Of a stretch of DNA of 64,000 nt, positions 12,691 through 37,732 are shown piece after piece. Both the position numbers and the translations under genes were made by a program. Positions within the stretch are counted from its first letter, which is position 1. Each line of letters starts with the position of its first letter. The stretch is from Cylicocyclus nassatus (lineage: Eukaryota > Nematoda > Chromadorea > Rhabditida > Strongylidae), in contig CATQJL010000316.1 in NCBI GenBank assembly GCA_958299035.1, positions 42,086,025 to 42,150,024 of the forward strand, in the 5' to 3' direction. The notes below the pieces were generated by a model that saw nothing but the letters and a program-made list of their open reading frames with translations, made no database searches and was not told where the DNA came from.

Positions 12691-12709
12691 GGAAAACTAA
12701 TGGGAAGAA

Positions 12710-13750: not shown

Positions 13751-13755
13751 AAATG

Positions 13756-14268: not shown

Positions 14269-14271
14269 GAA

Positions 14272-14480: not shown

Positions 14481-14957
14481 TGTTTCATACCGCCGCACTG
14501 ACTGCAGCGGAATGCAGCTAACCGCACTGACCGCAACGGCCGCACAATCGCTGCATCCTTTCGGGAAAGAGAAGACAGTTGTGAATACATCAAAACACCG
14601 CAATTTATGCCTAGAAATTTTGAGATTTTAACTACTCTTCTCAATTAAATTTTGGCGATTGTTTTTCTTTAGTATGCTCATATTTGTTCTGATTCCTTTT
14701 ATCATTGCACATACCTATTTTACTCGCGCTCGTGTTGTCTATTGGGCATATATTGTTTCAAAACTGTTTGAGCTACAACTATTTGTCCTCTCCACCTTCA
14801 CAAAAGAATGCAGCGATCTGTGCAGCCCCGTGGTCAGTGCGGTCAGTGGCAGTCTGCTGCAGTCTGCAGCAGTCTGCTGCAGTCAGGTGCGGTCAGTGCG
14901 GTCAGCTGCAGTCTGCTGCAGTCTGCTGCAATCAGTGCGGCAGTCTGAAACAACCCA
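14481..14957. mobile_element. small MITE with GGGTTGTTTCA termini
   Basis: Left GGGTTGTTTCATACCGCCG pairs with right GCGGCAGTCTGAAACAACCC, with a GCAGTC-rich interior containing several short tandem copies of GTCTGCTGCA and GTGCGGTCA. The gypsy reading RYYI resumes with TDWK and, in shifted frames, ALAIVFAVRRFHMF straight after it. The target duplication is short (ATT-like) and not exact. The inverted gypsy copy holds only the first about 45 bp of it. Confidence 0.6.
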
Positions 14958-15010
14958 TTGACTGGAAGCTTTAGCCATAGTTTTCGCGGTGAGACGCTTC
15001 CACATGTTTA

Positions 15011-15557
15011 CGGGGTGGCCGGTAAGTATGGGCGTCACAACATGTAATGTCTCTTTCTTCTAGAATATTTTATCATGGCGGCTTATGCCTGTAGCTTATG
15101 GACACTCCCTATATTAAGATAAGTGAAAATCACGCGAATTGAGGTCTTCTGACGCAAACGGGACTCCTGAGTCTACTTTCTCTTGAGAGACGCTGCGGCG
15201 CGTTCAACTGACACCATATTTGTATAGCGTATCTTATTTTGGAAAGGGAACTTTTTGCTGTTACGGCACTCTGTTATTCCTCGGACTGTAGTCTACAAAA
15301 ACTTAGGTTCGAATCTATTTAAATAATAATCGTCTTTAAACGAATTCGCAATGGGTACATTCTTCAATATCATTTTTGACTCATCAATTTCAAGGTAAGC
15401 TGCTGAAGTCTGTATGCATGTGCAAAACCCAGTCTTGCAGGAGCAATACGTTATGATGCCTCTGTCTTTGGCATGCAAAAATTATCTTACAGAATTATGT
15501 CTGCTGTGAAAAATCATTAAACGAAAAGTATGACGCCCATACTTTTCGGCCACCCTG
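15011..15557. mobile_element. mariner-like MITE in pol
   Basis: Flanked by TA on both sides. The ends are GGGGTGGCCGGTAAGTATGG and, reversed, AGGGTGGCCGAAAAGTATGG, continuing GCGTCA. The TA duplication and terminal GGTGGCCGAAAAGTAT are typical of Tc1/mariner-derived elements. No transposase was recognised inside. Excision restores the RNase H sequence (HMF to YGLPTIV). Confidence 0.75.
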
Positions 15558-16100
15558 TATGTATGGGCTTCCCACCATAGTTCTGACAGGTCACCAGCCT
15601 TTGACAGCGCTTTCAATAGAAGCAACGTATCTGCAAGGGTGTTACGATGGTCACTGGAAATGAAAAGGTATTTTGGTGATGATGTAAAAGCTAAGAGACG
15701 AACGTGGTAGCGGATGCATTGAGTAGAGGTTCTATCGAGAGTAGTGTCTGGGAAACTCGGGAGGCAGGAGAAGCAGTAGAGAGCAGGGTAGAAAGAGAAC
15801 GGAAAAGTAGATGGTTCAAGCAGTTAGAAAAGATGAAGTTTTTGGCCCAATTATCATTTTGTTGGAAAAGGGAGAGTTGAAAACTGGTGAACGTACCAGG
15901 ATTACGGTATCCCAATCGAATAGCCGATCTTGAGACTGAAAATGGGGAACTAAAGGTGTAAAGGAAAAAGGAAATCTAGTTATGGTAGTGCCAAAAAGCG
16001 AGAGGTACGAAGTATTTCACGAAGCGCATGCAGGAAGCTTTTCCGGACACTTTAGCGCGCATTAGCTGTGGAATCGGTTTGAGGCAATTGACAAAAATAT
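15558..16100 (+). pseudogene. gypsy RNase H end, linker and integrase HHCC finger
   Basis: Shifted frames give GLPTIVLTGHQPLTAL (about 15562-15610), a VVADALSRG-like end of RNase H (about 15704-15730), and VVPKSERYEVFHEAHAGSFS followed by GHF (about 15983-16050), the H-H half of the integrase zinc finger. After RFEAIDKNI the sequence jumps into Helitron DNA. The same CAATTGACAAAAATAT lies further downstream in the integrase of the inverted copy, so an internal deletion removed the catalytic core here. Confidence 0.75.
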
Positions 16101-16260
16101 CGATCGATGACGAAAAGTAGCCTATGACACCCGCCGGGGCCCGAAGTGTATGTGTGCCAAGTTTGGTCCCGATCGGTTCAGAAATGGAATTTTCTATTCG
16201 GGACATACGTACAGACATACATACATACAGACAAACAGACATTCAGCTTTATATATAAGA
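16101..16260 (-). mobile_element. truncated Helitron, copy 3 (5' end only)
   Basis: Minus strand starts TCTTATATATAAAGCTGAAT next to host A, includes the GACA/CATA microsatellite and the GGTGTCATAGGCTACTTTTCG block, and breaks off at ATCGATCGATAT. It sits exactly at the turning point between the + and - gypsy copies. The junction shares ATAT with the gypsy text, which suggests microhomology at the rearrangement. Confidence 0.8.
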
Positions 16261-16867
16261 TAAGCGCTTCATTTCCCTCCTTGTTCTATCATTATATTAT
16301 ATTCTTTCACGCGCTCCTGTGCTTCTACTACAGCTTGCAGCAACTGCGCCCTGTGTCATTCATGTTTTCAACCATAGAGTACCAAGAGATACCTCCGCTT
16401 GGAATCACTGCTGACGGGAAATTAGGATCTCTGCCATGTAACCAAAGTATGAGCTTTCTCTTTGGCACTTTTCGGACTAAGATTATAAGCATCATAAAAA
16501 ATGGTAATTTTGCATCACATTCCACTGGCACCTTCAGACTTTTTCTCAGCATAACCAGTATAGTTCCGTTCTACCTTTCCGCTATTCCGTTCTCCCGTGG
16601 GTTATACCCCTTTGTAGTTACGTGCTTAAATTTTGTATTATTGTCATGTAATATTTTTGTCAATTGCCAATCACCTTATTCTCAAATTCTCGGCCCTTGT
16701 CGGACAGTAATGTTTTAGGCCATTTACATCCCTTTGTTATCCACCTTATGAATAAAACCTTTGCTATCGTTTCAGCCGTTTTGTTCGGAACCGGGTATGC
16801 TGCTGCATACTTTGAGACGAATGGCTTCAGCGGTGGTCTCAGTGTCGTTTTAGGGTCGTGTACAAAG
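16261..16867 (-). pseudogene. gypsy integrase, catalytic core and C-terminus (- copy)
   Basis: Minus strand: KYAAAYPVPNKTAETIAKVL, then GCKWPKTLLSDKGREFENKV (second catalytic Asp in SDKG). After a one-base frame slip comes HVTTKGYNPRENGIAER, which supplies the D,D-35-E glutamate. It continues KLPFFMML and FLHGRDPNFPSAVIP-like text to about 16330. The N-terminal part lies across the gap. In its family this enzyme inserts cDNA into the host chromosome. Confidence 0.8.
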
Positions 16868-16892
16868 AGTACTCTGCGTTGATACCACTGCT
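16868..16892 (-). other. amplification adapter sequence at contig end (artefact)
   Basis: The last 25 bases before the gap are the reverse complement of the SMART-type oligo AAGCAGTGGTATCAACGCAG-AGTACT; only the terminal base is lost to the gap. This oligo is used in SMART cDNA amplification and, to my knowledge, in PacBio low-input genomic amplification kits. It is not biological sequence. Confidence 0.95.
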
Positions 16893-17392
16893 NNNNNNNN
16901 NNNNNNNNNNNNNNNNNNNNNNNNNNNNNNNNNNNNNNNNNNNNNNNNNNNNNNNNNNNNNNNNNNNNNNNNNNNNNNNNNNNNNNNNNNNNNNNNNNNN
17001 NNNNNNNNNNNNNNNNNNNNNNNNNNNNNNNNNNNNNNNNNNNNNNNNNNNNNNNNNNNNNNNNNNNNNNNNNNNNNNNNNNNNNNNNNNNNNNNNNNNN
17101 NNNNNNNNNNNNNNNNNNNNNNNNNNNNNNNNNNNNNNNNNNNNNNNNNNNNNNNNNNNNNNNNNNNNNNNNNNNNNNNNNNNNNNNNNNNNNNNNNNNN
17201 NNNNNNNNNNNNNNNNNNNNNNNNNNNNNNNNNNNNNNNNNNNNNNNNNNNNNNNNNNNNNNNNNNNNNNNNNNNNNNNNNNNNNNNNNNNNNNNNNNNN
17301 NNNNNNNNNNNNNNNNNNNNNNNNNNNNNNNNNNNNNNNNNNNNNNNNNNNNNNNNNNNNNNNNNNNNNNNNNNNNNNNNNNNNNNNNNNNN
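16893..17392. other. assembly gap, 500 N
   Basis: Exactly 500 N, the placeholder size used by several scaffolders, so the true distance is unknown. Both sides are integrase-coding parts of the minus-strand gypsy copy (finger on the right, catalytic core on the left). The missing piece may therefore be short. Confidence 0.98.
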
Positions 17393-17455
17393 AAGCACTG
17401 TTGATATTCTTTAATCCATTTACTCATGTTAATCAAAATGTTAGGCGAAAACATT
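17393..17455 (-). pseudogene. gypsy integrase, end of zinc-finger region (- copy)
   Basis: Encodes NILINMSKWIKEYQQC, the C-terminal part of the integrase finger just upstream of the core. It follows a deletion that removed the rest of RNase H in this copy. Confidence 0.65.
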
Positions 17456-20400
17456 GCTGCATTCCGCTGCAGTCAGTGCGGCAGTATGAAACAACCCAAT
17501 GATGTAGTATCGTCCCTCTGCCTTGCTGAGTCCTTTTGAGGCAAAGTAGACTGGGTGTACTAGCCCGTCGTCTCCCTCTTGACACAGCACCGCTCCTAAC
17601 CCTACCGTGGATGCGTTTGTGCATATCAAGAATGGTCGGGATCTTTTCCTTGCTTTCTCAATATCCGGTTGCATCAACACAGGCGCAGAGGCCATCATTT
17701 TCTTCGGGTGAAGGAACTTATCCCCCCCCCCAAAGGCTTGCCGCATTGTACCTTCGATATTATGAGTTGTCAGCAACACTAATTAGCATTGTATGCAGAG
17801 CTGATCAGTCCGGAGTCATTTTCAGTATCAATCTTGGAATATAATAATCTGACGGATTTTGGATTCAGCCAATTGCCCTAATCAAAGCAAATTTTTTTCG
17901 TTTCTTTTCCAGTTCTTCCAAGTTTACAATGAAATTTATTGTAGGGATTACATAAAAGAAAGTATGCAGTTTTGGCGAATTGAACAGAGATGCTATTTGG
18001 GAATAGCATCTTAGAGAACCCTTAGTTACCACCTTTCACCTTCACCGGGCATATATCGATACTGGAGTTTTAATAGGGGTTCATGCGCTGTTGGATGAGT
18101 ACGGGGCTTTTTGTGCGTAGAGATCAGTTTTACATAAGGCGCTAATTAGCGCTGCTGACATCTCATGGCTCCTATGGTTATGGCAGCAAATCGTTCGAAT
18201 AGATATGTTCCGTTCCCCATTTTCTTCAGCTTAGAAAATGCTTCTTTATGCTCTACCTCCCATTTCCGCACAGTTTTGGGCGAGGACAACACAAACAAGC
18301 TCCCCACAACTTTCAAGAATCCAAGGCAGAATTTGCTGTAGTATGATGCCATGCCGAAAAATGTTTCCAGCTCTTTGGAACTTTTCGGCACCGCATACCT
18401 CTCGATTGCTTCTACCTTCTTGGGGTCTATGTGCAGTCCTTCACATAGACCCTAAAAACGCCACTTTTCTTTGCAACAAAACTCACTTTTTCGCTTTCAA
18501 CTTCAGTCGCGCTTCTTGCAAACTTTGAATATCTTACTTAGTAGCTCCAGATGCCTTTCTCGGGTGTCTGTGCATATGATTATGTCGTCGATGTAACAGA
18601 AAAGTTCGCCTCCCAGTACATCCCGTAGTACTGAGTCCATGAGGCGCTGGAACACCGCAGTTCTTGTACTCAAACCAAAAGGAGTTAACCTAAACTGAAA
18701 CAGGCTTTCTGTCGTCGTAAATGCCGACTTCTCCCTTGCTTTTTTTGCCAACGGTATCTGCCAATAACCCAAACACAGATCCAGCGTGGAGAAGAACTTT
18801 TTTCCTGCAAGGATCTGTAGTACTGCGTCACTCGTAGGCAACAGGTATGAATTTAGTTTTTGATTGGCTTGTTCAACTCCCGGTAGTCCACACATAGCCT
18901 CAGGCTATCTTCCTTCTTCTCCACCAGCACTGTCGGGTGCCCAGGCTAAACTACTTTTTTCTATAATCTTTTGATTCTATCTTCTAGATGCTCCTTCAGC
19001 TTTTCGCGAATCCCCAGCGGCATGGGTCTAGTTTTCAGCTTTATTGGTTCAGCATAACCAGTTTTAATAGACATCTCTGCTTTATCTGTTCCCGTCAACT
19101 CAGTATCGAACACAGCAAATGCCTCTTCGAATTCGTCCACCAACTGTAGGTCCCCACCCAGCTGCTTTACCTTGGAATCTTCCCTCAGCTGTGTATACAG
19201 GATGTTACAGCGTTCCTCCCTATCCAGGTATGGTATCTCACTGCTCATCATCAGTGGATTCATTTCTTCCCACTTAGTTTTCCACTATTCTGTGCTCCAT
19301 TGTCCTAGCTCCTCTCCTTCTTTGTAAACCATTGGCTTCTCCAAAGTGTTCATGACAAGAATGTCCACATCCTGATTCTTCACTGTGAACACCCCGGCGG
19401 GTAGGCCCTCCCTGGTCGGCCACATAACTCTTTCTTCTAGTCCACTACCTCTTTCACATCGCGCCGGCACAAGTATTGAGTTATGTAGATAAATATACAC
19501 CCGCTTTGTTACCACTTCCCTTTTGCCGTCATACCTTTTCTGTTGCGTGTCCTCTGTTCTACGCATGATGTCGACTCTCAAAGCTGCTAATGCGTTGGTG
19601 CATATCAATATATCATCGTCCTTGACATCCGATATGTGGAAAGCCACTAAGCTTTTCCTTCCCCCTTCCAGCTGCACTGGGATCTTGACTGCCCAAAGAA
19701 TTTCATCTTGTTAGCCGAAGTGTCGTATACTGGAACCATCTCTCTCTCTTTCTCTCTCTCTCTCCCTCTCTTTCTCCGGGATCACCTCCAAGACGTTTAT
19801 GTTGCAGCGCGTGCTTCCTTCGCGCGTGCCAACAACTCTACAGGGATGATGCTTATCATATACCCGGTGTCTAATGTAGTGGAAGCCTGAAGGTTCAGCA
19901 GGCTTATTTGAATTGCGCATTTCTTCCTATCCATGAGCATTTATCCCCCTCATAGTCCTTGGGTCTCAAGATTGTCTCCCTGCCCATCATAGCAATCAAC
20001 TTATCTTTTTTTCGCCCTTTTGGAGTCCTTTAATCCTTTTGATCTGATTCACTTGGATGCGTCTGTACGGACAGTCTGTTCCAATGTGTTCATACCTTCT
20101 ACAATTAAAGCATTTTCTCTGGTCAGTGCCTGTTTTTCCACCTAGTCTTTCAGCATAGGGCTTTTCTAGCGGTATAGGCTTTTCACAGGAAACGTTTGCC
20201 CTTTCCTTTCTCCTTCTTCTGTGCTTGCAAGTGTTCGACTCTATCTGCTCGTCCCAGTAACTATCCGTTTCTTTTCTTTCGCGTTGAGTTCTTCACCCCC
20301 GCGCTCACAGCATCGGTATCTTTGCTTCCACTTGAGATCGTTGCTTGCAGCCTCACGGGCCCCAAAAATCTCTTTCCATTGCTGAATGCTTAGCGCTAGC

Positions 20401-20845
20401 TGCTTCACCGTGTTATAAGCCTCCTACGGCTCTACCTTGTGAATCGCGCTAAGTAGCTGTGTATGTTCTGGCCATCCACTCAAGTTGTCCATCAAGATCT
20501 GCGTGTACTCGAACGACCTCTCCCCTACCGTAGCGGTAAGATTGGCTTGCCTGCCCAGCCTCTCCAGTACAACTCAAAATTCCGCCACACTTTGGGCTCA
20601 ACTGTCTTAGCTCTGCAAGTGCTCTTAGCCTCCCTGCTGCTGAGTCATTAGTCACTAGTACCCTCAACGCTTCAGTTACGCTTTCAAACCTCTATGCTTA
20701 ACTTCCTCTGGCAGCGCCAAAAAGACCCTTTTTGTCCTTCCTTCGAGTGGTCATCTCCCATGATTTCAATCAGCATCTAGTCATCCCTACTCCCCCCCCC
20801 CTAGTATCTCCTTTTGAACCTTCTCAAAATTCTTCGAAACTCTCA
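17456..20845 (-). mobile_element. gypsy/Ty3-type element, - copy (gag to RNase H)
   Basis: The same domains as the + copy in reverse: RNase H (about 17500-17700), RT (18230-18930, YIDD at about 18584-18595), linker (18961-19677), protease (about 19790-19890), CCHC (about 20070-20112) and Gag (20450-20840). The integrase part lies at 16261-16867 and 17393-17455. It carries the same frame breaks as the + copy. Confidence 0.85.
17706..18217. mobile_element. MULE-like MITE in pol (- copy)
   Basis: Inverted counterpart of 13756-14268. Here the flanking duplication is perfect (CATTTTCTTC at 17696-17705 and 18218-18227), so this copy defines the boundaries best. Confidence 0.75.
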
Positions 20846-21322
20846 TGCCTGCCACCCTTGTACACACCAGGGCTCATGCATGCGTTGGCTTGCATAAGGG
20901 CTATTGCTTTGAGACTGACCTGCCTTCGGCTCGTGCCGCAAATGCAAGCATTCACATAAGTTCCATACTGGCCCTCCATACATCATTCAACTGCCTGCAC
21001 TCGTGCCGAGCGGCTGTGTTTTTTGGACTTCGATATGGTCTCGCAGCACCGCATCACCCGGCCCAAAAAAGGAAAGGAAATGTCTCAGCCTCATGAGACA
21101 TTGACAGCTTCCGTGCCTTCCGCTGCTTCAGGGAGTGATGAAGAAGGTACGCTTCTCAGCAGTTTGCATGCGATTTTAGAGGGCAAGGCCCCAGAGGCCT
21201 TGCCGCTTCTGAATCAATTTTTAACTTTGGTCAAACAGTCTGCCGCCAGGGGCCTTTTCGATGATGAGAAGCGGGGTCACTCCGTCGTCATATTTGGGAT
21301 CCCTGAGCTTAATGATGCTATT
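20846..21322 (+). pseudogene. LINE ORF1 N-terminal fragment, inverted copy
   Basis: Encodes MVSQHRITRPKKGKEMSQPH, EALPLLNQFLTLVKQSAARG and GHSVVIFGIPELNDAI, as in 10599-11120. It is cut at 21322 by the start of the RTE sequence, which marks the end of arm B. Confidence 0.75.
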
Positions 21323-22457
21323 CGTCCCCAGGTGGCGGAAAGGGGGATAATCGCCGACCAAAAGCGACCCCGCGCCTTCTCAGATAAGCAAGCGGAGTCG
21401 GGGGACGGACTCCCTGCCCCCACTAAAAGCTTGCACTCTAATTTCCCGGGTAGGTGTGTGGAGAGGCGAGTTCGGAGTCGCCTCCAACAAAGAAGCTCCG
21501 ATCGTTCCTCGCGGGGGTTTTGAGCCCACTAAGCTATCCCTGCAAGTAAAGTGTTGTTCGACACAGTGATATTATGGAAAGCTCCTTTAATCTTGGAAGA
21601 GCCACTGATAAGGCAGCGCCGGTGGGGACAAGGTTTGAAAGGCGATCTAGGCTGCCGAAAACGAGACGGACTATGATGACGATCTGTACTTAGGCATCGG
21701 ACGCCTCTATCGAAGACCTCATGATGCAAGCAAGGAAGATCAAGTATGACGTCATCGGACTGACCGAGACAAGGAGGCACCACCCGCTGAACGCCACATT
21801 TGAGACAGGAGAAGAACTGTTCCTAGGAGCCCTACGAACTCGAGGAATTCTATATAGACTGTAGAAGTCTACAGAGAAGATCATACCTTCTACAAGATCA
21901 TCGTCGATGATTTCAACGCGAAGATCGGAACTAGAAGGTCGCCTGAGGAACTTCACATCGGAACCCATGGTTTACAGTGGAACGAACAAGGGGAGAGACT
22001 GACCGAGTTTATCATGACGACGAGGACTATCCATGGAAACTCACAGTTCCAAAAGCCCTCTTCCCGACGCTGGTCATGGGAATCGCCCGGTGGAGAGTAC
22101 CATAACGAGATTGACCACATCATCGTCAACAGAAGGTACTGCCTGACGGACGTTGCTGTTGTTCCGAAGTTCTACACGGGATCAGACCATCGTCTCCTAG
22201 CGCCAAATTCTACTTTCCGCGGAATGGAGAGAGAGCCGTCAAGTTCAGGAAACATCGTCCCTTGAGTACTACCAACCGGGATCAGGGCCCGGCACGCGTT
22301 GGTTTGGAGGTTTTTAGGAAACGAAGTCCCCCATGACTTCGCGAAAATTTAGGAAGTCCCTCTCGATGTGAAAATCAGTAGGGGAACCCTTATTCAACCA
22401 AAATAGCAACAAAAAAGCGAAAAAAGCGCATTTTGAGGTACGTAATATAATAAAAAA

Positions 22458-22597
22458 GCAAAAAGAAAACATTTCGATTAAATCGAAATGTTTTCTTTTT
22501 GCGAGCCTTTAATCGAGTTTAAAATGGTACTATACCCAATGGCAGAGCCTTTAATCAAGTCGATTAAAGGCTCTGCCATTGGGTATAGTACCATTTT
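22458..22597. repeat. two perfect short palindromes (templated insertion)
   Basis: 22458-22502 is a perfect 22+1+22 palindrome, and 22521-22597 is a perfect 36+5+36 inverted repeat. The right arm (about 36370-36445) has each sequence once only. About 80 bp here are therefore an inverted copy of adjacent sequence, the mark of polymerase template switching. Confidence 0.85.
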
Positions 22598-22668
22598 GAT
22601 GCTGGGAATGTCGAAAATCTCCCAGGCCAACCAAATCTGTAGCCTCAACAATCCTGCGATGCATTTTA

Positions 22669-23128
22669 GCACGACGAACATGTCAGGTTTCACGAGTTGA
22701 ACGTGTTCTTTCGCAAGCGCGCAAATTTCAAATGCAAGACTCAAACAAACAAATGGCTTGTTTACAGCGCACAAACAATCACATGGCTCCGAATTTGGGC
22801 TACGTTTATACAATATTACTCCAAATCAAAAAGGTCCAAAACTTAAATGAACTCTCCGATATTTATGCTCCGAACCAACCCAGTTGGTTTGGTAGTTGGT
22901 CTCGAAACCAACAAATCCGAAACGGATATTAGGACACATAAGTTTTGGGAACTTTTTACATAACATGATTTGGAGTAATATTGTATAAACGTAGCCCAAA
23001 TTCGGAGCCATGTGATTGTTTGTGCGCTGTAAACAAGCCATTTGTTTGTTTGAGTCTTGCATTTGAAATTTGCGCGCTTGCGAAAGAACACGTTCAACTC
23101 GTGAAACCTGACATGTTCGTCGTGCTTT
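22669..23128. mobile_element. nested MITE with about 158-bp inverted repeats
   Basis: AGCACGACGAACATGTCAGG on the left is repeated inverted at the right (CCTGACATGTTCGTCGTGCT), and the arms match for about 158 bp each. The right palindrome arm has only one of the two terminal repeats (about 35847-36160). The duplication at its ends is unclear. Confidence 0.65.
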
Positions 23129-24000
23129 TTTGGCGCTTCCTCCAGGACCTCATAAAAGCGATGTCCCCGTTGCTCTTGTCTCCTCCAAAAACGAAGTCCA
23201 GTTTGACTTCAAACCATCGGTGCCGGGCCCTGAACGGGATCTGTTTTCTTCGATATCCGGCTCATGGCGAGATACCGTGATGGACAACATCGACGAAGAA
23301 TACGAACAGTTCGTACAACATCTCCACGATTGTGCCAATGAAGCTCAGAGTCTAAGAAATACGAGAAGGCGTCTCACCACGGATACTTTGGAGCTGACAC
23401 GCCAACGTGGATGCGCACGAGCCACAGGCAACTACCGACTGACGTCCGAGCTTGCAAAGCAATGCAGAGAAGCTATAAAAGAAGACTTCAAGGAGAGAAG
23501 AGTAGCAGAGATGGTTGACGCCGCGGAGGCTGGAAGAAGTATACGCAACGGCCGCCGAAGATTCGTCAACTTCAAGACAAAGATGACCGCACTTCGTCGT
23601 CCTGAAGGATCCATAACTGCTTCCCGAAGATTAATGGAGAAGGTCATCCACGACTTCTACTCGGATCTCTTTGCGAGCCAGGTCCACCTTCCACCATGCC
23701 ATCTCAAGGAGGACGAGTATGTCGCACCGCCTGTTCTTCCTTCCGAAGTTCGTCATGCTATCATGTCGATGAAGAACCATACAGCACCCGGTCCCGACAG
23801 GATTAAGCCAGAACATCTTAAGAATCTTTCGCCAGTTCTCATCAAGACTTTGGCAAGGCTCTTCACGCGGTACCTGACGGAAGGCAAGGTTGCAAGACAT
23901 TGTAAGACCAGCAAAACCGTGTTGCTGTACAAGAAGGGAGATTCCTGCGACATCGGCAATTATCGCCCTATCTGCTTGTTGTCTGTGGTCTACAAACTCT

Positions 24001-25300
24001 TTATTTATTTATTTATTTATTTTGTACGCCAGGAGGTGCGCTTCAATACAACAATCAGATCAGAACAGGGTGTAAAACGACAAATCAATAGAAAACATGA
24101 AAAGAAAGAAAAAAACCAACAAAGGAACAATCGTATTGAAATGAATAAGTCATCCAGATCTTGTCTAACCTACTTTGCACTCTCTGGAGGAAAGAGATAC
24201 ATAAAAGAAACGTTGATCAGCTCATTCCCTCTTCGCCCGTCAGCCCGATCAAGCATCCCAAACCGTGGGGACAAAGCGGAGACCCGGCGATCGGCTACAC
24301 TGGCCGCCCCCGCTAGGTAAGCCAAAACGGGTGTACTGGCAGGGGGCTGCCATTACCGCCGCTCACCGAAACCCCCGCCCCTCCCCACGAACCCGCAATG
24401 ACAGACCGGAGTGGCGGAAGAAGACAACACAACGCCCCAGATACTAGTATTACCGCCAGTATAGTGCAACGGCCAGAAACAACCCGAAACAAAAAACTTC
24501 AGAGAACCTGACTGGAGGTACTAGAGGAGGTAATAAAAAGTGAGAAAAGCTATCTGACGCAAGGTACTCCCGGAGTTGAGAAGCTCTGGAAAGACACGGG
24601 AGAGCTAGGAAAACATACAAAAGGTAGCATGTGCCCGTTACTGCAGTGCAGGGAAGATACAGTTAAAACAAGAAGCGAGTGATAAAAAAGACAAGAACAG
24701 CAACAAATGAATTCATTCCACGTCACGTATGCCTAGCACTTGTAGAATGTCCATTTTTTGGATGGCAATTTTGAAGTGTGCTGAATTTTTAAGGCATGAA
24801 AGAGTAGTAGGCAAACGTTCCAGCTATTTGGCGACTCTGAAAAAGAAGGAACTCGTACACCTCAGACGATTTGCGCTCGGTAGCTTGAGTCGAAAGGCAA
24901 AACCGCCATGCCATCCGTACACCGGACGAAACGCCCAATAGCTTGAGGGCTTTAAACGAAGTTCCCCTTTGAGAATCTTATAGGCTAAAATCAAGTCAGC
25001 TTCTACCTTTCTGTAAAAAAGACTCTTGAGGTTCAACTCGCGCAGGCGAACTTTATATGGGGATAGACCCTGCGGATAGCTTGGGTACGGAAAGTCTCGG
25101 TAGTAGAGTACTCTGGTAAACATCCTCTGCACACTTTCAATTTTGTTAATATCCTTGGAGCGATAAGGACTCCATACAGGGCCGCAGTATTCAATCAGTG
25201 GCAAGACGAACATTTTGAAAAGTTTGATCCAAAGAAAAGGATCAGAACTCAAAACATTTCTAAAAAGACAGTGCAAAACCCTCAAGCCCTTGGCCGCCAC
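24001..25300 (-). mobile_element. LINE 3' fragment (CR1/Jockey-like)
   Basis: Minus strand. The 3' tail of (TAAA)n lies at 24001-24022. The ORF2 end (24824-25300) encodes KMFVLPLIEYCGPVWSPYRS, then DINKIESVQRM and SLFYRKVEADLILAYKILKG; beyond a stop comes DILQVLGI. Same family as the LINE at 6073-11120. About 0.8 kb of 3' sequence (24022-24820) has no recognised coding. It is truncated at its 5' side. Confidence 0.8.
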
Positions 25301-27035
25301 CGCGTCAATATGGCTCTCAAAGTTCGTCGAAGCTTCGTCAACTTCAAGAAAAAGATGACCGCACTTCGTCGCCCTGACGGATCTATAACTGCTTCCCGAA
25401 GATCGAGGAGAAGGTCATCCACGACTTCTACTCGGATCTCTTTGCGAGCCGCGTCCACCTTCCACCATGCCATCTCAAGGAAGACGAGTATGTCGCACCA
25501 TCTGTTCTTCCTTCCGAAGTTCATCATGCTATCATGTCGATGAAGAACCGTACAGCACCCGGTCCCGACAGGATTAAGCCAGAACATCTTAAGAATCTTT
25601 CGCCAATTCTCATCAAGACTTTGGCAAGGCTCTTTACGCGGTACCTGACGGAAGGTAAGGTCGCAAGACATTGGAAGACCTGCAAAACCGTGTTGCTGTA
25701 CAAGAAGGGGGATCCCTGCGACATCGGCAATTATCGCCCTATCTGCTTGTTGTCTGTAGTCTACAAACTCTTTACGCGAGTTATTCTCAACAGGATCGGA
25801 AGAGAGTTAGACGAAGGACAACCATGCGAGCAAGCTGGGTTTTGAAGAGGATTCAGCACGATAGACCACATACACACGGTGTCAAGGCTCATTGAAGTGT
25901 CACGAGAATATAAGATGCCGCTCTGTCTCATCTTCATCGACTTGAAAAAAGCCTTGGACTCGGTTGAGACTGAAGCCGTCCTCGATGCCTTGAGCAATCA
26001 AGGTATTTCGACTCATCACATCAAGATAATTCGTGAGCTGTATAACGACTTCACAACCACCATAACACCATTCTACAAGGACATCATCATCGACGTGAAG
26101 AGAGGCGTGCGACAAGGCGATACTATATCGACGAAACTATTCAGTGCCGCTCTGGAGACGTCATGCGTAAGCTGGAATAGGACAACCCACATTCGCTTTG
26201 CTGATAACATCGTATTGATAACACCAAGCATCACGCAGGCGGAACAAATGCTGGCCCAGTTTGACGAAATGTGTGGAAAGATCGGTCTACGGCTGAATCT
26301 AACGAAGACGATGTTCATGAGGAACGGAAGAGTGCCTGATGCTCCTTTCATGCTTAACGGGACGAACATCACCGAATGCTCAAGCTACACCTACCTAGGT
26401 CGTGAGCTCAATATGATGAACGATTTACCTCCGGAACTGAGCAGGAGGAAACGTGCAGCATGGGGAGCATATAAGACAATTGAGGACGTAGTGAAGAAGA
26501 CCAAGAACATCCGGCTCCGCGCCCACCTTTTCAACTCGACGGTTCTTCCTGCTTTGATGTACGCTTCATGGACAATAAGAAAGCAGGATGAACATGCGGT
26601 TAGCGTCATCGAACGAGCTGTTGAGAGAGTGATGCTAGGAGTGAATCGACTCACGCAAGTAAGGCAAGGATTACGAAGTTCTACCCTACGTTAACGATCG
26701 AAGATCAGGGACGCTGCCGCGTACGCCAAGCAGAACAAGATAAGACGGGCCGGGCACGTAATGCGTTTCGACGACAAAAGGGGGACGAGAGCTGGCTGTA
26801 ACAAATTGGATACCACTGGACGTCAAACGCGAACGAGGAAGACCGCCGACGCGATGGTCAGATATGTTCACGAAGTCCTTTAATGAAGTCCTTCAGAGCG
26901 TTCCACGTGTTCCTGGTGCGTTACGTAAACACTGGTCAACAATCGCCCGAGACAGGGACGAATGGAGGCATCACTGATACCCGCTCGTGCAACACGATGA
27001 TCAATGGGGATACAGGTGATACAGGTGATGTTGCG
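25301..27035 (+). mobile_element. RTE element, copy B (RT core to 3' end)
   Basis: Begins in the RT N-terminus and overlaps about 440 bp of copy A at roughly 94% identity, so it is a separate or duplicated copy. It contains APGPDRIKPEHLKNL, a frame slip after PCEQAGF, FIDLKKALDSVETEAVLDAL, RGVRQGDTIS and IRFADNIVLIT: the catalytic box is FADN instead of FADD. The C-terminal region runs to about 26960 and the 3' end has a short ACAGGTGAT tandem. It is inactive by these changes. Confidence 0.85.
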
Positions 27036-27847
27036 TCATCATGTGAACAAGTTGAATGGTGAGGATTTTTTGTGTTTGGCTGTAATATATGACAGAAAAT
27101 CTTTATAGAAAGATAGTTGAGTAGGCAAAAAATTCGAATAGAAAAGAAGTTTCGCACTGCTTGTTCGCGCCCACTATTTGATTTTAGGAATAGAGATATT
27201 TTCCACAAATTTCTTTAAACCGAGGATAGCTAGTCTGTGCTTTAGCTGAAACGGCCGAAAAATTTCGTCGAATCGAACGAATATCGAACAATCGACTTTT
27301 GGAAAATATTTGAATTCGAATTCGAAGATTTGAATAATGCTACATTTTAAAATTCGAATGAATGAATATTCGAATAAAATTAAAATTAAATTAAATAATA
27401 ATTTGACTATTCGAATATTCGAATTAGTTGTACCTGTCCAAATATTCAACTTCAATTAATTTGAATAATCTAGTGGCTCAAACACTGCTGATCTTTTCTT
27501 TGTTGCAGTTTTCTGCAAAAATCAAACCGCTATATTTGGTCTAGATTCGTAGCTGATAATATGTGTAGCAAGTGGTAAGGATGACTGAATTATTGTCGCT
27601 TAGTCACTTTCCACCTAGAAAACAGAACAATTTTACCCAAACATGTACTTCAAGGTGTTCACTGTCCTTTGAACGCTCTAAGCCTTACTTAATAACCGTT
27701 TCAAGTCCTCATTTATTCTTCCTCACAGAAGTTCTTCCCCGAAGCAACACGGACCTTTTCCTCATAGCCACATATTCAGCATGATAAACCTTTTGGGATA
27801 GATGGTTGTTCGTAATTTATTCCTGATAAGCATTGCATGAGTTCTAA
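27036..27847. other. non-coding arm segment with ATTCGA tract
   Basis: No gene is recognised. An ATTCGA/AT-rich tract occupies about 27250-27450. The mirror copy is 31133-31945. Confidence 0.5.
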
Positions 27848-28498
27848 CAAGGGAAGGATACTTGGTTGAAGTAGCGTTTTTATATGAAATGGCACTGTTT
27901 CATAGAGCATGGAAAGCCGTTTCCAAACCTGTTTTCGATACCTGCAAAGCTCTTTTGGAAGCAGAGATAGGGGAATTTGCAGTAAAAATTCAAGGGCTTG
28001 GTTAAGGCTCTCGCTAGAGTGCCAAAGCCATGCCAGCGCTACGCCAGCGCCGAGCTAACGTTTCGATCGATACACGTGTATTTCGTTGGGGCGGAGTCCT
28101 GGCTGAGAACTAGGTCAGTTAGTCTCGCTCCAACGAAATACACGTGTATCGATCGAAACGCTAGCTCGGCGCTGGCGTAGCGCTGGCATGGCTTCGGCAC
28201 TCTGACGGGAGCCTAAGGTAAGAACAGTGAGGTCTCTTTGGGTGTAAGGAGTAATGATTAGCATTTACCAGACTGAAAATCAATTGCATAAAGCGCCCTG
28301 GCAGTAATCATGACCCCAAATCGAGCTCACAGACTACAGTTCGGAAAGATTTTATTGTAGCCACGATTCTAGGTTTTTCTCTAAAAAACGTAACCCTCCA
28401 AGAAGCGCTTTGCAGACATACTAAAGGCAGATTCGAAATTAGCGTATCATGCTCTATAAGATAGTATATATTTCATTCGGCCAAGTATTCTTCCCTTG
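27848..28498. mobile_element. foldback MITE, TAA duplication (left arm)
   Basis: TAA-CAAGGGAAGGATACTTGG at the left and CCAAGTATTCTTCCCTTG-TAA at the right. The long inverted arms include the GCAAAGC / GCTTTGC region. Same terminus family as 9185, 48964 and 58036. It carries a second foldback element at 28003-28216. The mirror copy is 30482-31132. Confidence 0.8.
28003..28216. mobile_element. small nested foldback element
   Basis: About 85-bp arms: CCATGCCAGCGCTACGCCAG and its reverse complement CTGGCGTAGCGCTGGCATGG, continuing through TCGATCGATACACGTGTATT. The loop is about 40 bp. The mirror copy is at about 30772-30985. Confidence 0.75.
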
Positions 28499-28616
28499 TA
28501 AGACTAGCACTGCGAGAGCACGAGAAAGGTCTGTGTAATAAAATTAGAACCTCTGCAGCAGAGGTGACGCACTGTTGTCTACATAGTGCTTTTGTGCGCA
28601 TCTAGATCCAGAAAAA

Positions 28617-28642
28617 AAGCAGTGGTATCAACGCAGAGTACT
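28617..28642 (+). other. complete amplification adapter embedded in sequence (artefact)
   Basis: A full 26-nt SMART-type oligo (AAGCAGTGGTATCAACGCAG, then AGTACT) sits between CCAGAAAA and TAGCTGC. The mirror position in the right arm (about 30338-30363) has ordinary sequence of similar length. The assembled left arm was therefore joined through an untrimmed adapter. Confidence 0.97.
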
Positions 28643-29121
28643 TAGCTGCTAATCTAATACTTGTCGGATGTTATCAACCGCTGAGTTTCACAGTTTCTTC
28701 TGTAAGGCCGAGTTTTCACAAAGTTGTTCTAGCTGCATTTCCTGTTGTGCTTTTGTTGTAAGGAATCTTCAACATCTTATACTCAAATTCAAAATAAATA
28801 TTGTTCAACCTACTTATTCCTCTACGAACTTTGCAACATTTTAATACTAGTTTTTTTTACTCCTCCTGACTATAAAGGCAGCCGATTTGAATATGGTGGC
28901 TGACATAAACGCTGCCGCCATAAGTCAAGCGGCTCAGGTCCTCGCAACCGCATCGCTCTGGCCTTGCGCTGGTTAACGTATCTTTCAAGTATTTTGAAAT
29001 GCGGGTGGTAATAAGGTTGGTAAGGCAAGTGGAGATCTCTAGATGAAGCAATAAATGTTGCCAATATGTGCTGCTTCAAAGGATCGCTGATCCTTCATAT
29101 GCCTATGCAAGCTGTTTGAGG
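28643..29121. other. innermost part of left palindrome arm
   Basis: Unassigned. The minus-strand reading RDLHLPYQPYYHPHFKILER, with YVNQRKARA next, is open for 69 codons and is conserved in the mirror arm on + (29909-30118), but this is expected from the duplication and I recognise no family. Confidence 0.4.
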
Positions 29122-29866
29122 CGCTCGCAAAGAAGCCGGTGGGAAATTTGTGGTCGGCCTGGAAAACTGCGAGCATTTTCGTCAGGATGGACATCGACAT
29201 GACCTTAGAAATCAAATGGAAGGACGGAGCAGTCTGCATGGACCCGGAGGGACTAGGAAACTTCTATGATTGGCATACAAGAGCTGTATCGATTGAACCG
29301 AGTAAAGAGGCAAGAGGCACGAGAGGATCGACAACTACGAATTCGACAGATTCTACAACGCGGCATTCGGAAGAGCCAACGCTGAGCTCGAAGGCGAGGA
29401 GAAAGGACACACACCCATGAAGGAAGGAGGAACGGCATTTGCGGCACCGCTATGTGCAACTCTGCTGGAAAGGGAGGGACCCAAACGGGACACACGCACA
29501 AGAGTTGTGGCAACATTCTAACAGCTCAGTGAGGTCCTGCAGGAATGGAAAGAACACAAGACATGGGTACTAGTATGGATGGCGATGAAGAGTGACATAT
29601 GCGCAGTAATGGAGACGTGTATGTAGCAATTTAAAGAGGGCGGAAAAGTAGTGACGGTTTGGCAAAATATTATACTTACTGAAGCAGGTACCCCAAAAAG
29701 ATGCCTCTTTTAACACAGCTTAGACGCTCCGGTGGCATGTGCAAAGTTGTCGTACGAAGTTGCAGAAGTCTGTGCAGAAAGTGAGGTGCGATATCATGCG
29801 CAAATAACTCCAAGCTCTAAATTGATAGAAGGCACCGTCATTAAGCGCCACTTTAGTGCCACTGGT
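29122..29866 (+). other. palindrome spacer with a coding-like fragment
   Basis: The only part of the palindrome without a partner. From about 29272 a + frame reads QELYRLNRVKRQEARERIDN, then YEFDRFYNAAFGRANAELEG and GTAFAAPLCATLLEREGPKR, ending at a stop near 29520; a shifted frame continues LQEWKEHKTWVLVWMAMKSD. The composition suggests a decayed Gag-like or host protein, but I recognise no family. Confidence 0.4.
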
Positions 29867-30481
29867 CCTCAAACAGCTTGCATAGGCATATGAAGGATCA
29901 GCGCTCCTTTGAAGCAGCACATATTGGCAACATTTATTGCTTCATCTAGAGATCTCCACTTGCCTTACCAACCTTATTACCACCCGCATTTCAAAATACT
30001 TGAAAGATACGTTAACCAGCGCAAGGCCAGAGCGAGGCGGTTGCGAGGACCTGAGCCGCTTGACTTATGGCGGCAGCGTTTATGTCAGCCACCATATTCA
30101 AATCGGGTACCTTTATAGTCAGGGGGAGTAAAAAAAACTAGTATTAAAATGTTGCAAAGTTCGTAGAGGAATAAGTAGGTTAAACAATATTTATTTTGAA
30201 TTTGAGTATAAGATGTTGAAGCAACAAAAGCACAACAGGAAATGCAGCTAAAACAACTTTGTGAAAACTCGGCCTTACAAAAGAAACTGTGAAACTCAGC
30301 GGTTGATAACATCCGACAAGTATTAGATTAGCAGCTAATATACAGATATTCCCATAACTTTTCTTTTTCTGGATCTAGATGCGCACAAAAGCACTATGTA
30401 GACAACAGTGCGTCACCTCTGCTGCAGAGGTTCTAATTTTATTACACAGACCTTTCTCGTGCTCTCGCAGTGCTAGTCTTA

Positions 30482-31132
30482 CAAGGGAAGAATACTTGGC
30501 CGAATGAAATATATACTATCTTATCGAGCATGATACGCTAATTTCGAATCTGCCTTTAGTATGTCTGCAAAGCGCTTCTTGGAGGGTTACGTTTTTTAGA
30601 GAAAAACCTAGAATCGTGGCTACAATAAAATCTTTCCGAACTGTAGTCTGTGAGCTCGATTTGGGGTCATGATTACTGCCAGGGCGCTTTATGCAATTGA
30701 TTTTCAGTCTGGTAAATGCTAATCATTACTCCTTACACCCAAAGAGACCTCACTGTTCTTACCTTAGGCTCCCGTCAGAGTGCCGAAGCCATGCCAGCGC
30801 TACGCCAGCGCCGAGCTAGCGTTTCGATCGATACACGTGTATTTCGTTGGAGCGAGACTAACTGACCTAGTTCTCAGCCAGGACTCCGCCCCAACGAAAT
30901 ACACGTGTATCGATCGAAACGTTAGCTCGGCGCTGGCGTAGCGCTGGCATGGCTTTGGCACTCTAGCGAGAGCCTTAACCAAGCCCTTGAATTTTTACTG
31001 CAAATTCCCCTATCTCTGCTTCCAAAAGAGCTTTGCAGGTATCGAAAACAGGTTTGGAAACGGCTTTCCATGCTCTATGAAACAGTGCCATTTCATATAA
31101 AAACGCTACTTCAACCAAGTATCCTTCCCTTG
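30482..31132. mobile_element. foldback MITE, TTA duplication (right arm)
   Basis: Mirror of 27848-28498, flanked by TTA at 30479-30481 and 31133-31135, with the nested foldback at about 30772-30985. Confidence 0.8.
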
Positions 31133-31529
31133 TTAGAACTCATGCAATGCTTATCAGGAATAAATTACGAACAACCATCTATCCCAAAAGGTTTATCATG
31201 CTGAATATGTGGCTATGAGGAAAAGGTCCGTGTTGCTTCGGGGAAGAACTTCTGTGAGGAAGAATAAATGAGGACTTGAAACGGTTATTAAGTAAGGCTT
31301 AGAGCGTTCAAAGGACAGTGAACACCTTGAAGTACATGTTTGGGTAAAATTGTTCTGTTTTCTAGGTGGAAAGTGACTAAGCGACAATAATTCAGTCATC
31401 CTTACCACTTGCTACGCATATTATCAGCTACGAATCTAGACCAAATATAGCGGTTTGATTTTTGCAGAAAACTGCAACAAAGAAAAGATCAGCAGTGTTT
31501 GAGCCACTAGATTATTCAAATTAATTGAA

Positions 31530-31720
31530 GTTGAATATTTGGACAGGTACAACTAATTCGAATATTCGAATAGTCAAATTATTATTTAATTTAATTTTAA
31601 TTTTATTCGAATATTCATTCATTCGAATTTTAAAATGTAGCATTATTCAAATCTTCGAATTCGAATTCAAATATTTTCCAAAAGTCGATTGTTCGATATT
31701 CGTTCGTTCGACGAAATTTT
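31530..31720. repeat. ATTCGA-rich tract (right arm)
   Basis: Mirror of the tract at 27250-27450, differing by a small change near 31705 (CGTTCGTTCGACG against CGTTCGATTCGACG). Confidence 0.55.
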
Positions 31721-31944
31721 TCGGCCGTTTCAGCTAAAGCACAGACTAGCTATCCTCGGTTTAAAGAAATTTGTGGAAAATATCTCTATTCCTAAAATCA
31801 AATAGTGGGCGCGAACAAGCAGTGCGAAACTTCTTTTCTATTCGAATTTTTTGCCTACTCAACTATCTTTCTATAAAGATTTTCTGTCATATATTACAGC
31901 CAAACACAAAAAATCCTCACCATTCAACTTGTTCACATGATGAC

Positions 31945-33670
31945 GCAACATCACCTGTATCACCTGTATCCCCATTGATCATCGTGTTGCACGAGCGGGT
32001 ATCAGTGATGCCTCCATTCGTCCCTGTCTCGGGCGATTGTTGACCAGTGTTTACGTAACGCACCAGGAACACGTGGAACGCTCTGAAGGACTTCATTAAA
32101 GGACTTCGTGAACATATCTGACCATCGCGTCGGCGGTCTTCCTCGTTCGCGTTTGACGTCCAGTGGTATCCAATTTGTTACAGCCAGCTCTCGTCCCCCT
32201 TTTGTCGTCGAAACGCATTACGTGCCCGGCCCGTCTTATCTTGTTCTGCTTGGCGTACGCGGCAGCGTCCCTGATCTTCGATCGTTAACGTAGGGTAGAA
32301 CTTCGTAATCCTTGCCTTACTTGCGTGAGTCGATTCACTCCTAGCATCACTCTCTCAACAGCTCGTTCGATGACGCTAACCGCATGTTCATCCTGCTTTC
32401 TTATTGTCCATGAAGCGTACATCAAAGCAGGAAGAACCGTCGAGTTGAAAAGGTGGGCGCGGAGCCGGATGTTCTTGGTCTTCTTCACTACGTCCTCAAT
32501 TGTCTTATATGCTCCCCATGCTGCACGTTTCCTCCTGCTCAGTTCCGGAGGTAAATCGTTCATCATATTGAGCTCACGACCTAGGTAGGTGTAGCTTGAG
32601 CATTCGGTGATGTTCGTCCCGTTAAGCATGAAAGGAGCATCAGGCACTCTTCCGTTCCTCATGAACATCGTCTTCGTTAGATTCAGCCGTAGACCGATCT
32701 TTCCACACATTTCGTCAAACTGGGCCAGCATTTGTTCCGCCTGCGTGATGCTTGGTGTTATCAATACGATGTTATCAGCAAAGCGAATGTGGGTTGTCCT
32801 ATTCCAGCTTACGCATGACGTCTCCAGAGCGGCACTGAATAGTTTCGTCGATATAGTATCGCCTTGTCGCACGCCTCTCTTCACGTCGATGATGATGTCC
32901 TTGTAGAATGGTGTTATGGTGGTTGTGAAGTCGTTATACAGCTCACGAATTATCTTGATGTGATGAGTCGAAATACCTTGATTGCTCAAGGCATCGAGGA
33001 CGGCTTCAGTCTCAACCGAGTCCAAGGCTTTTTTCAAGTCGATGAAGATGAGACAGAGCGGCATCTTATATTCTCGTGACACTTCAATGAGCCTTGACAC
33101 CGTGTGTATGTGGTCTATCGTGCTGAATCCTCTTCAAAACCCAGCTTGCTCGCATGGTTGTCCTTCGTCTAACTCTCTTCCGATCCTGTTGAGAATAACT
33201 CGCGTAAAGAGTTTGTAGACTACAGACAACAAGCAGATAGGGCGATAATTGCCGATGTCGCAGGGATCCCCCTTCTTGTACAGCAACACGGTTTTGCAGG
33301 TCTTCCAATGTCTTGCGACCTTACCTTCCGTCAGGTACCGCGTAAAGAGCCTTGCCAAAGTCTTGATGAGAATTGGCGAAAGATTCTTAAGATGTTCTGG
33401 CTTAATCCTGTCGGGACCGGGTGCTGTACGGTTCTTCATCGACATGATAGCATGATGAACTTCGGAAGGAAGAACAGATGGTGCGACATACTCGTCTTCC
33501 TTGAGATGGCATGGTGGAAGGTGGACGCGGCTCGCAAAGAGATCCGAGTAGAAGTCGTGGATGACCTTCTCCTCGATCTTCGGGAAGCAGTTATAGATCC
33601 GTCAGGGCGACGAAGTGCGGTCATCTTTTTCTTGAAGTTGACGAAGCTTCGACGAACTTTGAGAGCCATA
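31945..33670 (-). mobile_element. RTE element, copy B (right arm)
   Basis: Mirror of 25301-27035. It has the same 271-codon RT segment (32285-33100) with FADN in place of FADD, the same frame slip after PCEQAGF and the same 3' tandem. The shared lesions show that this is a duplication product and not an independent insertion. Confidence 0.85.
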
Positions 33671-34978
33671 TTGACGCGGTGGCGGCCAAGGGCTTGAGGG
33701 TTTTGCACTGTCTTTTTAGAAATGTTTTGAGTTCTGATCCTTTTCTTTGGATCAAACTTTTCAAAATGTTCGTCTTGCCACTGATTGAATACTGCGGCCC
33801 TGTATGGAGTCCTTATCGCTCCAAGGATATTAACAAAATTGAAAGTGTGCAGAGGATGTTTACCAGAGTACTCTACTACCGAGACTTTCCGTACCCAAGC
33901 TATCCGCAGGGTCTATCCCCATATAAAGTTCGCCTGCGCGAGTTGAACCTCAAGAGTCTTTTTTACAGAAAGGTAGAAGCTGACTTGATTTTAGCCTATA
34001 AGATTCTCAAAGGGGAACTTCGTTTAAAGCCCTCAAGCTATTGGGCGTTTCGTCCGGTGTACGGATGGCATGGCGGTTTTGCCTTTCGACTCAAGCTACC
34101 GAGCGCAAATCGTCTGAGGTGTACGAGTTCCTTCTTTTTCAGAGTCGCCAAATAGCTGGAACGTTTGCCTACTACTCTTTCATGCCTTAAAAATTCAGCA
34201 CACTTCAAAATTGCCATCCAAAAAATGGACATTCTACAAGTGCTAGGCATACGTGACGTGGAATGAATTCATTTGTTGCTGTTCTTGTCTTTTTTATCAC
34301 TCGCTTCTTGTTTTAACTGTATCTTCCCTGCACTGCAGTAACGGGCACATGCTACCTTTTGTATGTTTTCCTAGCTCTCCCGTGTCTTTCCAGAGCTTCT
34401 CAACTCCGGGAGTACCTTGCGTCAGATAGCTTTTCTCACTTTTTATTACCTCCTCTAGTACCTCCAGTCAGGTTCTCTGAAGTTTTTTGTTTCGGGTTGT
34501 TTCTGGCCGTTGCACTATACTGGCGGTAATACTAGTATCTGGGGCGTTGTGTTGTCTTCTTCCGCCACTCCGGTCTGTCATTGCGGGTTCGTGGGGAGGG
34601 GCGGGGGTTTCGGTGAGCGGCGGTAATGGCAGCCCCCTGCCAGTACACCCGTTTTGGCTTACCTAGCGGGGGCGGCCAGTGTAGCCGATCGCCGGGTCTC
34701 CGCTTTGTCCCCACGGTTTGGGATGCTTGATCGGGCTGACGGGCGAAGAGGGAATGAGCTGATCAACGTTTCTTTTATGTATCTCTTTCCTCCAGAGAGT
34801 GCAAAGTAGGTTAGACAAGATCTGGATGACTTATTCATTTCAATACGATTGTTCCTTTGTTGGTTTTTTTCTTTCTTTTCATGTTTTCTATTGATTTGTC
34901 GTTTTACACCCTGTTCTGATCTGATTGTTGTATTGAAGCGCACCTCCTGGCGTACAAAATAAATAAATAAATAAATAA
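33671..34978 (+). mobile_element. LINE 3' fragment (right arm)
   Basis: Mirror of 24001-25300. The ORF2 C-terminus is at 33679-34155 and the (AAAT)n tail at about 34956-34979, abutting RTE copy A. Confidence 0.8.
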
Positions 34979-37732
34979 AGAGTTTGTAGACCACAGACAA
35001 CAAGCAGATAGGGCGATAATTGCCGATGTCGCAGGAATCTCCCTTCTTGTACAGCAACACGGTTTTGCTGGTCTTACAATGTCTTGCAACCTTGCCTTCC
35101 GTCAGGTACCGCGTGAAGAGCCTTGCCAAAGTCTTGATGAGAACTGGCGAAAGATTCTTAAGATGTTCTGGCTTAATCCTGTCGGGACCGGGTGCTGTAT
35201 GGTTCTTCATCGACATGATAGCATGACGAACTTCGGAAGGAAGAACAGGCGGTGCGACATACTCGTCCTCCTTGAGATGGCATGGTGGAAGGTGGACCTG
35301 GCTCGCAAAGAGATCCGAGTAGAAGTCGTGGATGACCTTCTCCATTAATCTTCGGGAAGCAGTTATGGATCCTTCAGGACGACGAAGTGCGGTCATCTTT
35401 GTCTTGAAGTTGACGAATCTTCGGCGGCCGTTGCGTATACTTCTTCCAGCCTCCGCGGCGTCAACCATCTCTGCTACTCTTCTCTCCTTGAAGTCTTCTT
35501 TTATAGCTTCTCTGCATTGCTTTGCAAGCTCGGACGTCAGTCGGTAGTTGCCTGTGGCTCGTGCGCATCCACGTTGGCGTGTCAGCTCCAAAGTATCCGT
35601 GGTGAGACGCCTTCTCGTATTTCTTAGACTCTGAGCTTCATTGGCACAATCGTGGAGATGTTGTACGAACTGTTCGTATTCTTCGTCGATGTTGTCCATC
35701 ACGGTATCTCGCCATGAGCCGGATATCGAAGAAAACAGATCCCGTTCAGGGCCCGGCACCGATGGTTTGAAGTCAAACTGGACTTCGTTTTTGGAGGAGA
35801 CAAGAGCAACGGGGACATCGCTTTTATGAGGTCCTGGAGGAAGCGCCAAAAAAGCACGACGAACATGTCAGGTTTCACGAGTTGAACGTGTTCTTTCGCA
35901 AGCGCGCAAATTTCAAATGCAAGACTCAAACAAACAAATGGCTTGTTTACAGCGCACAAACAATCACATGGCTCCGAATTTGGGCTACGTTTATACAATA
36001 TTACTCCAAATCATGTTATGTAAAAAGTTCCCAAAACTTATGTGTCCTAATATCCGTTTCGGATTTGTTGGTTTCGAGACCAACTACCAAACCAACTGGG
36101 TTGGTTCGGAGCATAAATATCGGAGAGTTCACTTAAGTTTTGGACCTTTTTGATTTGGACAATTAGAACGGTCAAAAATCTATCATGTAGTGAAGAGAGC
36201 GGATCAAACCGTTGCCTTTCCCCTTTTTTTTGAGTCAAAAGTAGTATAATTCTGCGCGTTGATAGATATCGCGCTCCAATCACTTGCGGTTTCCTTTGAA
36301 ATATGTATCGAAAAATGCATCGCAGGATTGTTGAGGCTACAGATTTGGTTGGCCTGGGAGATTTTCGACATTCCCAGCATCAAAATGGTACTATACCCAA
36401 TGGCAGAGCCTTTAATCGACTCGAAATGTTTTCTTTTTGCTTTTTTGTTATATTACGTACCTCAAAATGCGCTTTTTTCGCTTTTTTGTTGCTATTTTGG
36501 TTGAATAAGGGTCCCCCTACTGATTTTCACATCGAGAGGGACTTCGTAAATTTTCGCGAAGTCATGGGGGACTTCGTTTCCTAAAAACCTCCAAACCAAC
36601 GCGTGCCGGGCCCTGATCCCGGTTGGTGGTACTCAAGGGACGATGTTTCCTGAACTTGACGGCTCTCTCTCCATTCCGCGGAAAGTAGAATTTGGCGCTA
36701 GGAGACGATGGTCTGATCCCGTGTAGAACTTCGGAACAACAGCAACGTCCGTCAGGCAGTACCTTCTGTTGACGATGATGTGGTCATTGACGATGATGTG
36801 GTCAATCTCGTTATGGTACTCTCCACCGGGCGATTCCCAAGACCAGCGTCGGGAAGAGGGCTTTTGGAACTGTGAGTTTCCATGGATAGTCCTCGTCGTC
36901 ATGATAAACTCGGTCAGCCTCTCCCCTTGTTCGTTCCACTGTAAACCATGGGTTCCGATGTGAAGTTCCTCAGGCGACCTTCTAGTTCCGATCTTCGCGT
37001 TGAAATCATCGACGATGATCTTGTAGAAGGTATGATCTTCTCTGTAAAACTTCTACAGTCTATATAGAATTCCTCGAATTCGTTCTCGTCGTAGCTGGAT
37101 ATTGGGGCATTCCGATTCGAGTTGTAAGTTGTTCGAACGGATCGATGTTCATGGCCAAACTCGTGTTGACAAGGACTCCCACTCCACCCCTACTCTTCGA
37201 CTGCCGCATGTTCCTAGGAACAGTTCTTCTCCTGTCTCAAATGTGGCGTTCAGCGGGTGGTGCCTCCTTGTCTCGGTCAATCCGATGACGTCATACTTGA
37301 TCTTCCTTGCTTGCATCATGAGGTCTTCGATAGAGGCGTCCGATGCCAGCGTTCTCGCGTTGTAAGTACAGATCGTCATCATAGTCCGTCTCGTTTTCGG
37401 CAGCCTAGATCGCCTTTCAAACCTTGTCCCCACCGGCGCTGCCTTATCAGTGGCTCTTCCAAGATTAAAGGAGCTTTCCATAATATCACTGTGTCGAACA
37501 ACACTTTACTTGCAGGGATAGCTTAGTGGGCTCAAAACCCCCGCGAGGAACGATCTGAGCTTCTTTGTTGGAAGCGACTCCGAACTCGCCTCTCCACACA
37601 CCTACCCGGGAAATTAGAGTGCAAGCTTATAGTGGGGGCAGGGAGTCCGTCCTCCGGCTCCGCTTGCTTATCTGAGCAGGCGCGGGGTCGCTTTTGGTCG
37701 GCGATTATCCCCCTTTCCGCCACATGGGGACG
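34979..37732 (-). mobile_element. RTE element, copy A (right arm)
   Basis: Mirror of 21323-24000 with a more complete endonuclease: MTICTYNARTLASDASIEDL (about 37320-37380), VIGLTETRRHH and SDHRLL. Its 5' boundary is at 37732 (CCACATGGGGACG). A tandem GACGATGATGTGGTCA duplication near 36771-36800 is absent from the left arm. Confidence 0.85.
35747..36615. mobile_element. hAT-like element in RTE (right arm)
   Basis: Termini CAGGGCCCGGCAC and GTGCCGGGCCCTG with the same flanks as the left-arm copy, so it is the same insertion event. The interior has one 158-bp terminal repeat of the nested MITE, and about 150 bp (36160-36310) not present in the left arm. Confidence 0.85.

Follow-up and report, generated by a model that had tools for sequence, protein, structure and literature searches.

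What does an almost perfect palindrome mean when a complete library adapter is embedded in one of its arms? This question is raised by a stretch of 64,000 nucleotides (nt) from the nematode Cylicocyclus nassatus (assembly GCA_958299035.1, contig CATQJL010000316.1, positions 42,086,025 to 42,150,024 of the forward strand), hereafter called the window, in whose coordinates all positions are given. The answer favored here, which we consider quite probable, is that an adapter left untrimmed at the start of a read, together with misplaced opposite-strand sequence of the right arm, made the near-perfect palindrome.

The segment 28617-28642 of the + strand reads AAGCAGTGGTATCAACGCAGAGTACT and matches the adapter oligonucleotide (oligo) in 26 of 26 bases, bearing out the original prediction of a complete library adapter at this place. 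When both strands were scanned with up to 3 mismatches allowed, two matches were found in the window, whereas 100 shuffles averaged 0.00; the runner-up on the + strand has 9 mismatches. The earlier reading, which was correct about the copy at 28617 on the + strand, had overlooked the second match, a reverse-complement copy of 25 nt at 16868-16892 on the - strand whose 26th base falls on the first N of a 500-N gap (16893-17392). Other pieces of the oligo of at least 11 nt are absent from the 64-kb window. An untrimmed adapter is expected at the end of a read or fragment, and hence at the end of a contig. The second copy lies flush with the gap, and a read end left untrimmed would be expected to put the reversed oligo at a contig end. 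Given the copies at 28617 and at the gap edge, untrimmed reads most likely entered the assembly. That natural nematode DNA should resemble the oligo by chance is so improbable that this reading was rejected, in view of the full-length match, the two copies (one of them at a contig end), the shuffles devoid of any match and the lack of shorter pieces elsewhere.

The oligo had been described as SMART-type and associated with low-input PacBio sequencing. Its first 25 nt correspond to the SMART cDNA oligo, and the T at its end suits TA ligation to sheared fragments. The association with amplified PacBio libraries agrees with the description of a lichen genome assembled from PacBio HiFi reads, in which the same 26-nt oligo is named as adapter contamination and was removed with lima (PMC12613986). 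The letters printed in that article are identical to AAGCAGTGGTATCAACGCAGAGTACT at 26 of 26 positions. After lima, the lichen reads were passed to pbmarkdup, whose citation title speaks of amplified libraries; this use suggests that the oligo would be specific to amplified (ultra-low-input) libraries (PMC12613986). It is most likely an adapter for the polymerase chain reaction (PCR), used when sheared genomic DNA is amplified ahead of PacBio sequencing.

Comparison of the window with itself revealed two inverted duplications that abut at 21322/21323 with 0 bases between them. The second of these is the palindrome of interest, totaling about 16.4 kb (21323-37732): a left arm at 21323-29121, within which the adapter lies, faces a right arm at 29867-37732 across a 745-nt spacer (29122-29866). 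The first opposes a left arm at 10647-14518 to a right arm at 17456-21322 with 99.07% identity (23 mismatches and 6 gaps), and the N gap lies between these two arms.

The adapter occupies its place in the left arm base for base. Mirrored positions sum to 58980 on both of its sides, placing the flanks on the same diagonal, and mirrored bases agree at 1341 of 1343 positions outside the adapter (27274-28616) and at 114 of 116 inside it (28643-28758), with 8 of 26 agreeing over the adapter itself. Exactly 26 nt were therefore replaced, with no shift and no net change in length, and the mirror position 30338-30363 holds ordinary sequence, as had been claimed. A replacement of this kind of the 26 mirror nt expected here points to a read start carried into the contig and not to an insertion; the adapter is taken as an untrimmed 5' read start, with the insert beginning at 28643. 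Ligation of two fragments through an adapter dimer at 28617 was considered and rejected, since no reverse adapter precedes this copy and the length is unchanged. Dimer ligation has a different appearance, a head-to-head pair, as seen in 11 of 12 prokaryote loci described below, whereas a single overwriting adapter is present at 28617. The join through untrimmed adapter that was originally proposed is refined accordingly: the sequence holds one adapter overwriting 26 nt in place of a head-to-head pair.

The adapter is also the boundary between a near-identical outer arm and a diverged inner arm. Outside it, the tract 22829-28616 (5788 nt) differs from the right arm by 3 substitutions and one 1-nt indel; inside it, the inner left arm at 28643-29121 (479 nt) differs from its counterpart at 29867-30337 (471 nt) by 8 substitutions and one 8-nt indel. 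Farther out, the left arm at 21323-22477 displays about 20 substitutions and four indels, beyond which comes an 81-nt indel; some of these differences, next to a 123-nt gap, could reflect noise in the alignment. Fisher tests with counts entered by hand from the alignment, on segments picked after the differences had been seen, separate the near-identical tract (3 in 5788 nt) from the inner arm (8 in 471 nt; p 1.3e-7) and from the other inverted duplication (23 in 3866 nt; p 4.3e-7). Between 28455 and 28700 the adapter is the sole difference, which confines the inner end of the tract to an interval of 245 nt holding the adapter. The outer change of identity falls within about 22452-22847, an interval that contains a second scar.

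This second scar is a fold-back: the 161 nt at 22668-22828 are a perfect inverted copy of 22966-23126, with a 137-nt spacer. It is the sole perfect inverted copy of at least 100 nt among the matches listed, pieces of the large duplications aside. Its outer copy occurs in the left arm and is missing from the right. There its first 152 nt take the place of the mirrored right-arm sequence 36160-36311 without shift, and the next 9 nt fit both. We read the segment 22668-22828 as the fold-back tail of a read start, pasted into the contig in the same way as the adapter.

The contig-end adapter, the in-register replacement and the identity switch together support a join through untrimmed adapter, and with it the earlier advice that the palindrome should not be taken at face value. 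From the adapters, the in-register replacements and the identity switch, all of which are present in the sequence, we infer pieces that each derive from a single read and a false overlap between them. On the simplest account, the contig would have been assembled from reads in succession, each of them starting with its own first base, so that the adapter or chimeric tail of the entering read would overwrite just as many bases of true sequence. At its 5' start, one read would have retained the synthetic adapter. The order of the pieces would be as follows: first the diverged sequence, 17393 to about 22667; next 22668-28616, contributed by one read or a chain of reads; last the adapter-led read with its insert from 28643. 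The middle piece would be opposite-strand sequence of the right-arm copy, misplaced as left arm, and its join to the adapter-led read may have been made through the short, 98%-similar inverted repeat 28643-29121/29867-30337, whose end lies 505 nt from the adapter.

Several observations weigh against this account. The inner arms differ by 1.7% and an 8-nt indel, and a simple fold-back of one molecule is accordingly disfavored as the source of the inner hairpin; this hairpin could be of natural origin or could be a chimera formed from two alleles. The near-identical tract is delimited less sharply on its outer than on its inner side: the right arm also matches 22558-22667, just outside the second scar, at 110 of 110 positions, so that the tract is not fixed to the scar and could end anywhere in the interval of about 22452-22847. 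Chimeric alignments amounted to at most 0.81% in PCR-amplified and non-amplified libraries alike (PMC11809032), a low rate which speaks against frequent fold-backs and not against a single bad join.

The behavior of the same 26-mer in other collections has to be counted on the same side. A scan of GTDB, with one genome per species, returned 12 stretches, all from records with FRAM in the title (metagenome-assembled genomes of a marine series). Eleven contain a head-to-head adapter pair, one member of which carries one mismatch in three cases (L002, L004 and L012), and one (L011) has a single adapter. Beyond the adapter pair, an inverted repeat of at least 40 nt straddling the adapter was found in 0 of the 12 loci, two of which (L008 and L010) could hardly reveal such arms as the adapter lies less than 100 nt from the start of the stretch; unrelated inverted repeats are present in L006, about 2.5 kb from the adapter. 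A scan of IMG/VR gave 114 viral stretches of 1.0 to 14.9 kb, none of which has an inverted repeat of at least 100 nt at 90% identity. The adapter is at base 1, which we infer to be the contig's own end, in 110 of these, at the last base in one and at base 3 in another (L119); of the remaining two, L039 carries two copies in the same direction near its end and L034 a head-to-head pair in its interior. Its position, in IMG/VR mostly at sequence ends, and the lack of inverted repeats designate the oligo as a trace of the library which does not produce palindromes by itself.

One alternative is a real inverted duplication of about 16 kb, kept mostly near-identical by gene conversion, in which the adapter is a 26-nt consensus blemish due to one untrimmed read start. 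An in-register replacement of 26 nt is equally expected inside a true palindrome, gene conversion likewise yields arms of mosaic identity, and the loose connection between the outer end of the tract and the scar is in its favor; a divergent inverted duplication has also been suggested on one haplotype of another parasitic nematode, Heligmosomoides bakeri (PMC10682056). On the other side, the inner end of the tract coincides with the adapter, a second scar resembling a read start lies at or near the outer end, and a gap parts the arms of the abutting inverted duplication. We regard it as unlikely. Somewhat better placed, though still doubtful, is the possibility that the inner hairpin is a PCR or ligation chimera, formed when a strand of one allele switched template onto the other allele, and that this read seeded the palindrome. 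Such an origin is compatible with the join through untrimmed adapter. The library was probably amplified, judging from the adapter, and the perfect 161-nt fold-back with its 137-nt spacer at 22668-23126 is also in its favor. Whole-genome amplification is known to yield inverted chimeric reads, but the report of them concerns multiple displacement amplification (PMC13265396). Against such a chimera, few chimeric reads came from a PCR-based protocol in one comparison, and the 16.4-kb duplication exceeds the read average of about 10 kb in the same source (PMC11809032).

The same distrust applies to the abutting "palindrome", which covers 10647-21322 and spans the N gap. The two outer breaks, 10646/10647 and 37732/37733, both map to 21322/21323, with no base shared at the join. 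Reversal of 17393-22667 brings the right end of the right arm into direct contact with the left end of the first arm. A breakpoint common to both outer breaks is what a junction from a tandem duplication, a circle or an insertion/deletion would give. Tentatively, and with the odds against it, one real junction may lie beneath the artefact, belonging to a tandem duplication, an excised circle or a large insertion/deletion allele that was placed inverted. The tandem or circular segment so implied, put forward with the same reserve, would comprise 10647-16867, the gap and 29122-37732, and would measure at least 14.8 kb. The open frame across 21322/21323 has no homologue at E 0.001 (103 candidates) and the one across 29121/29122 none at E 0.01 (1 candidate), so that proteins could not decide which junctions are natural.

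Pfam named one of 10 frames, a reverse transcriptase of 282 residues at 25846-26691 (PF00078, E 7e-19). Among the best 120 of its 973 matches, the closest has 87% identity and the top named genera are Ancylostoma, Necator, Parelaphostrongylus, Haemonchus and Angiostrongylus, three of which were checked and belong to the nematode superfamily Strongyloidea; by these matches the host resembles a strongyloid nematode. Rfam returned no match at gathering thresholds. A hairpin recurring in both arms (28005-28214 and 30766-30975), with an 89-nt inverted repeat and a 32-nt loop, resembles a miniature inverted-repeat transposable element.

The value of these results lies in assembly quality control, their biological interest being low. 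Untrimmed reads probably went into this nematode assembly, and its near-perfect palindromes are unsuitable for claims of gene conversion or inverted duplication until raw reads have been consulted. Adapter screening restricted to SMRTbell sequences may miss this oligo. Where raw reads are not at hand, such joins could be flagged by overwriting of equal length combined with a change of arm identity at the adapter.

In the FRAM genomes, the same 26-mer is likewise found inside contigs, but mostly as a pair between two inserts and without flanking inverted arms, unlike the single copy at 28617, which sits in a palindrome. The head-to-head pairs suggest, as an observation in its own right, chimeric joins in public reference genomes. 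In the lichen HiFi reads the letters are identical and the contamination was removed before assembly, whereas it was retained in the present contig (PMC12613986). The nearest likeness is to error type D of Sim et al. (2022), in which HiFi assemblies contain an inverted duplicate next to adapter sequence (PMC8864876). That error shares with the present locus an adapter embedded in a contig, an adjoining inverted duplicate and HiFi reads that had not been sanitized. Its oligo is a different one, that of the present contig having probably served as PCR adapter in an amplified library, and the published errors were proved against a re-assembly of filtered reads (PMC8864876). By analogy, the palindrome around 28617 resembles an assembly error of a published kind, the inverted duplicate next to an adapter.
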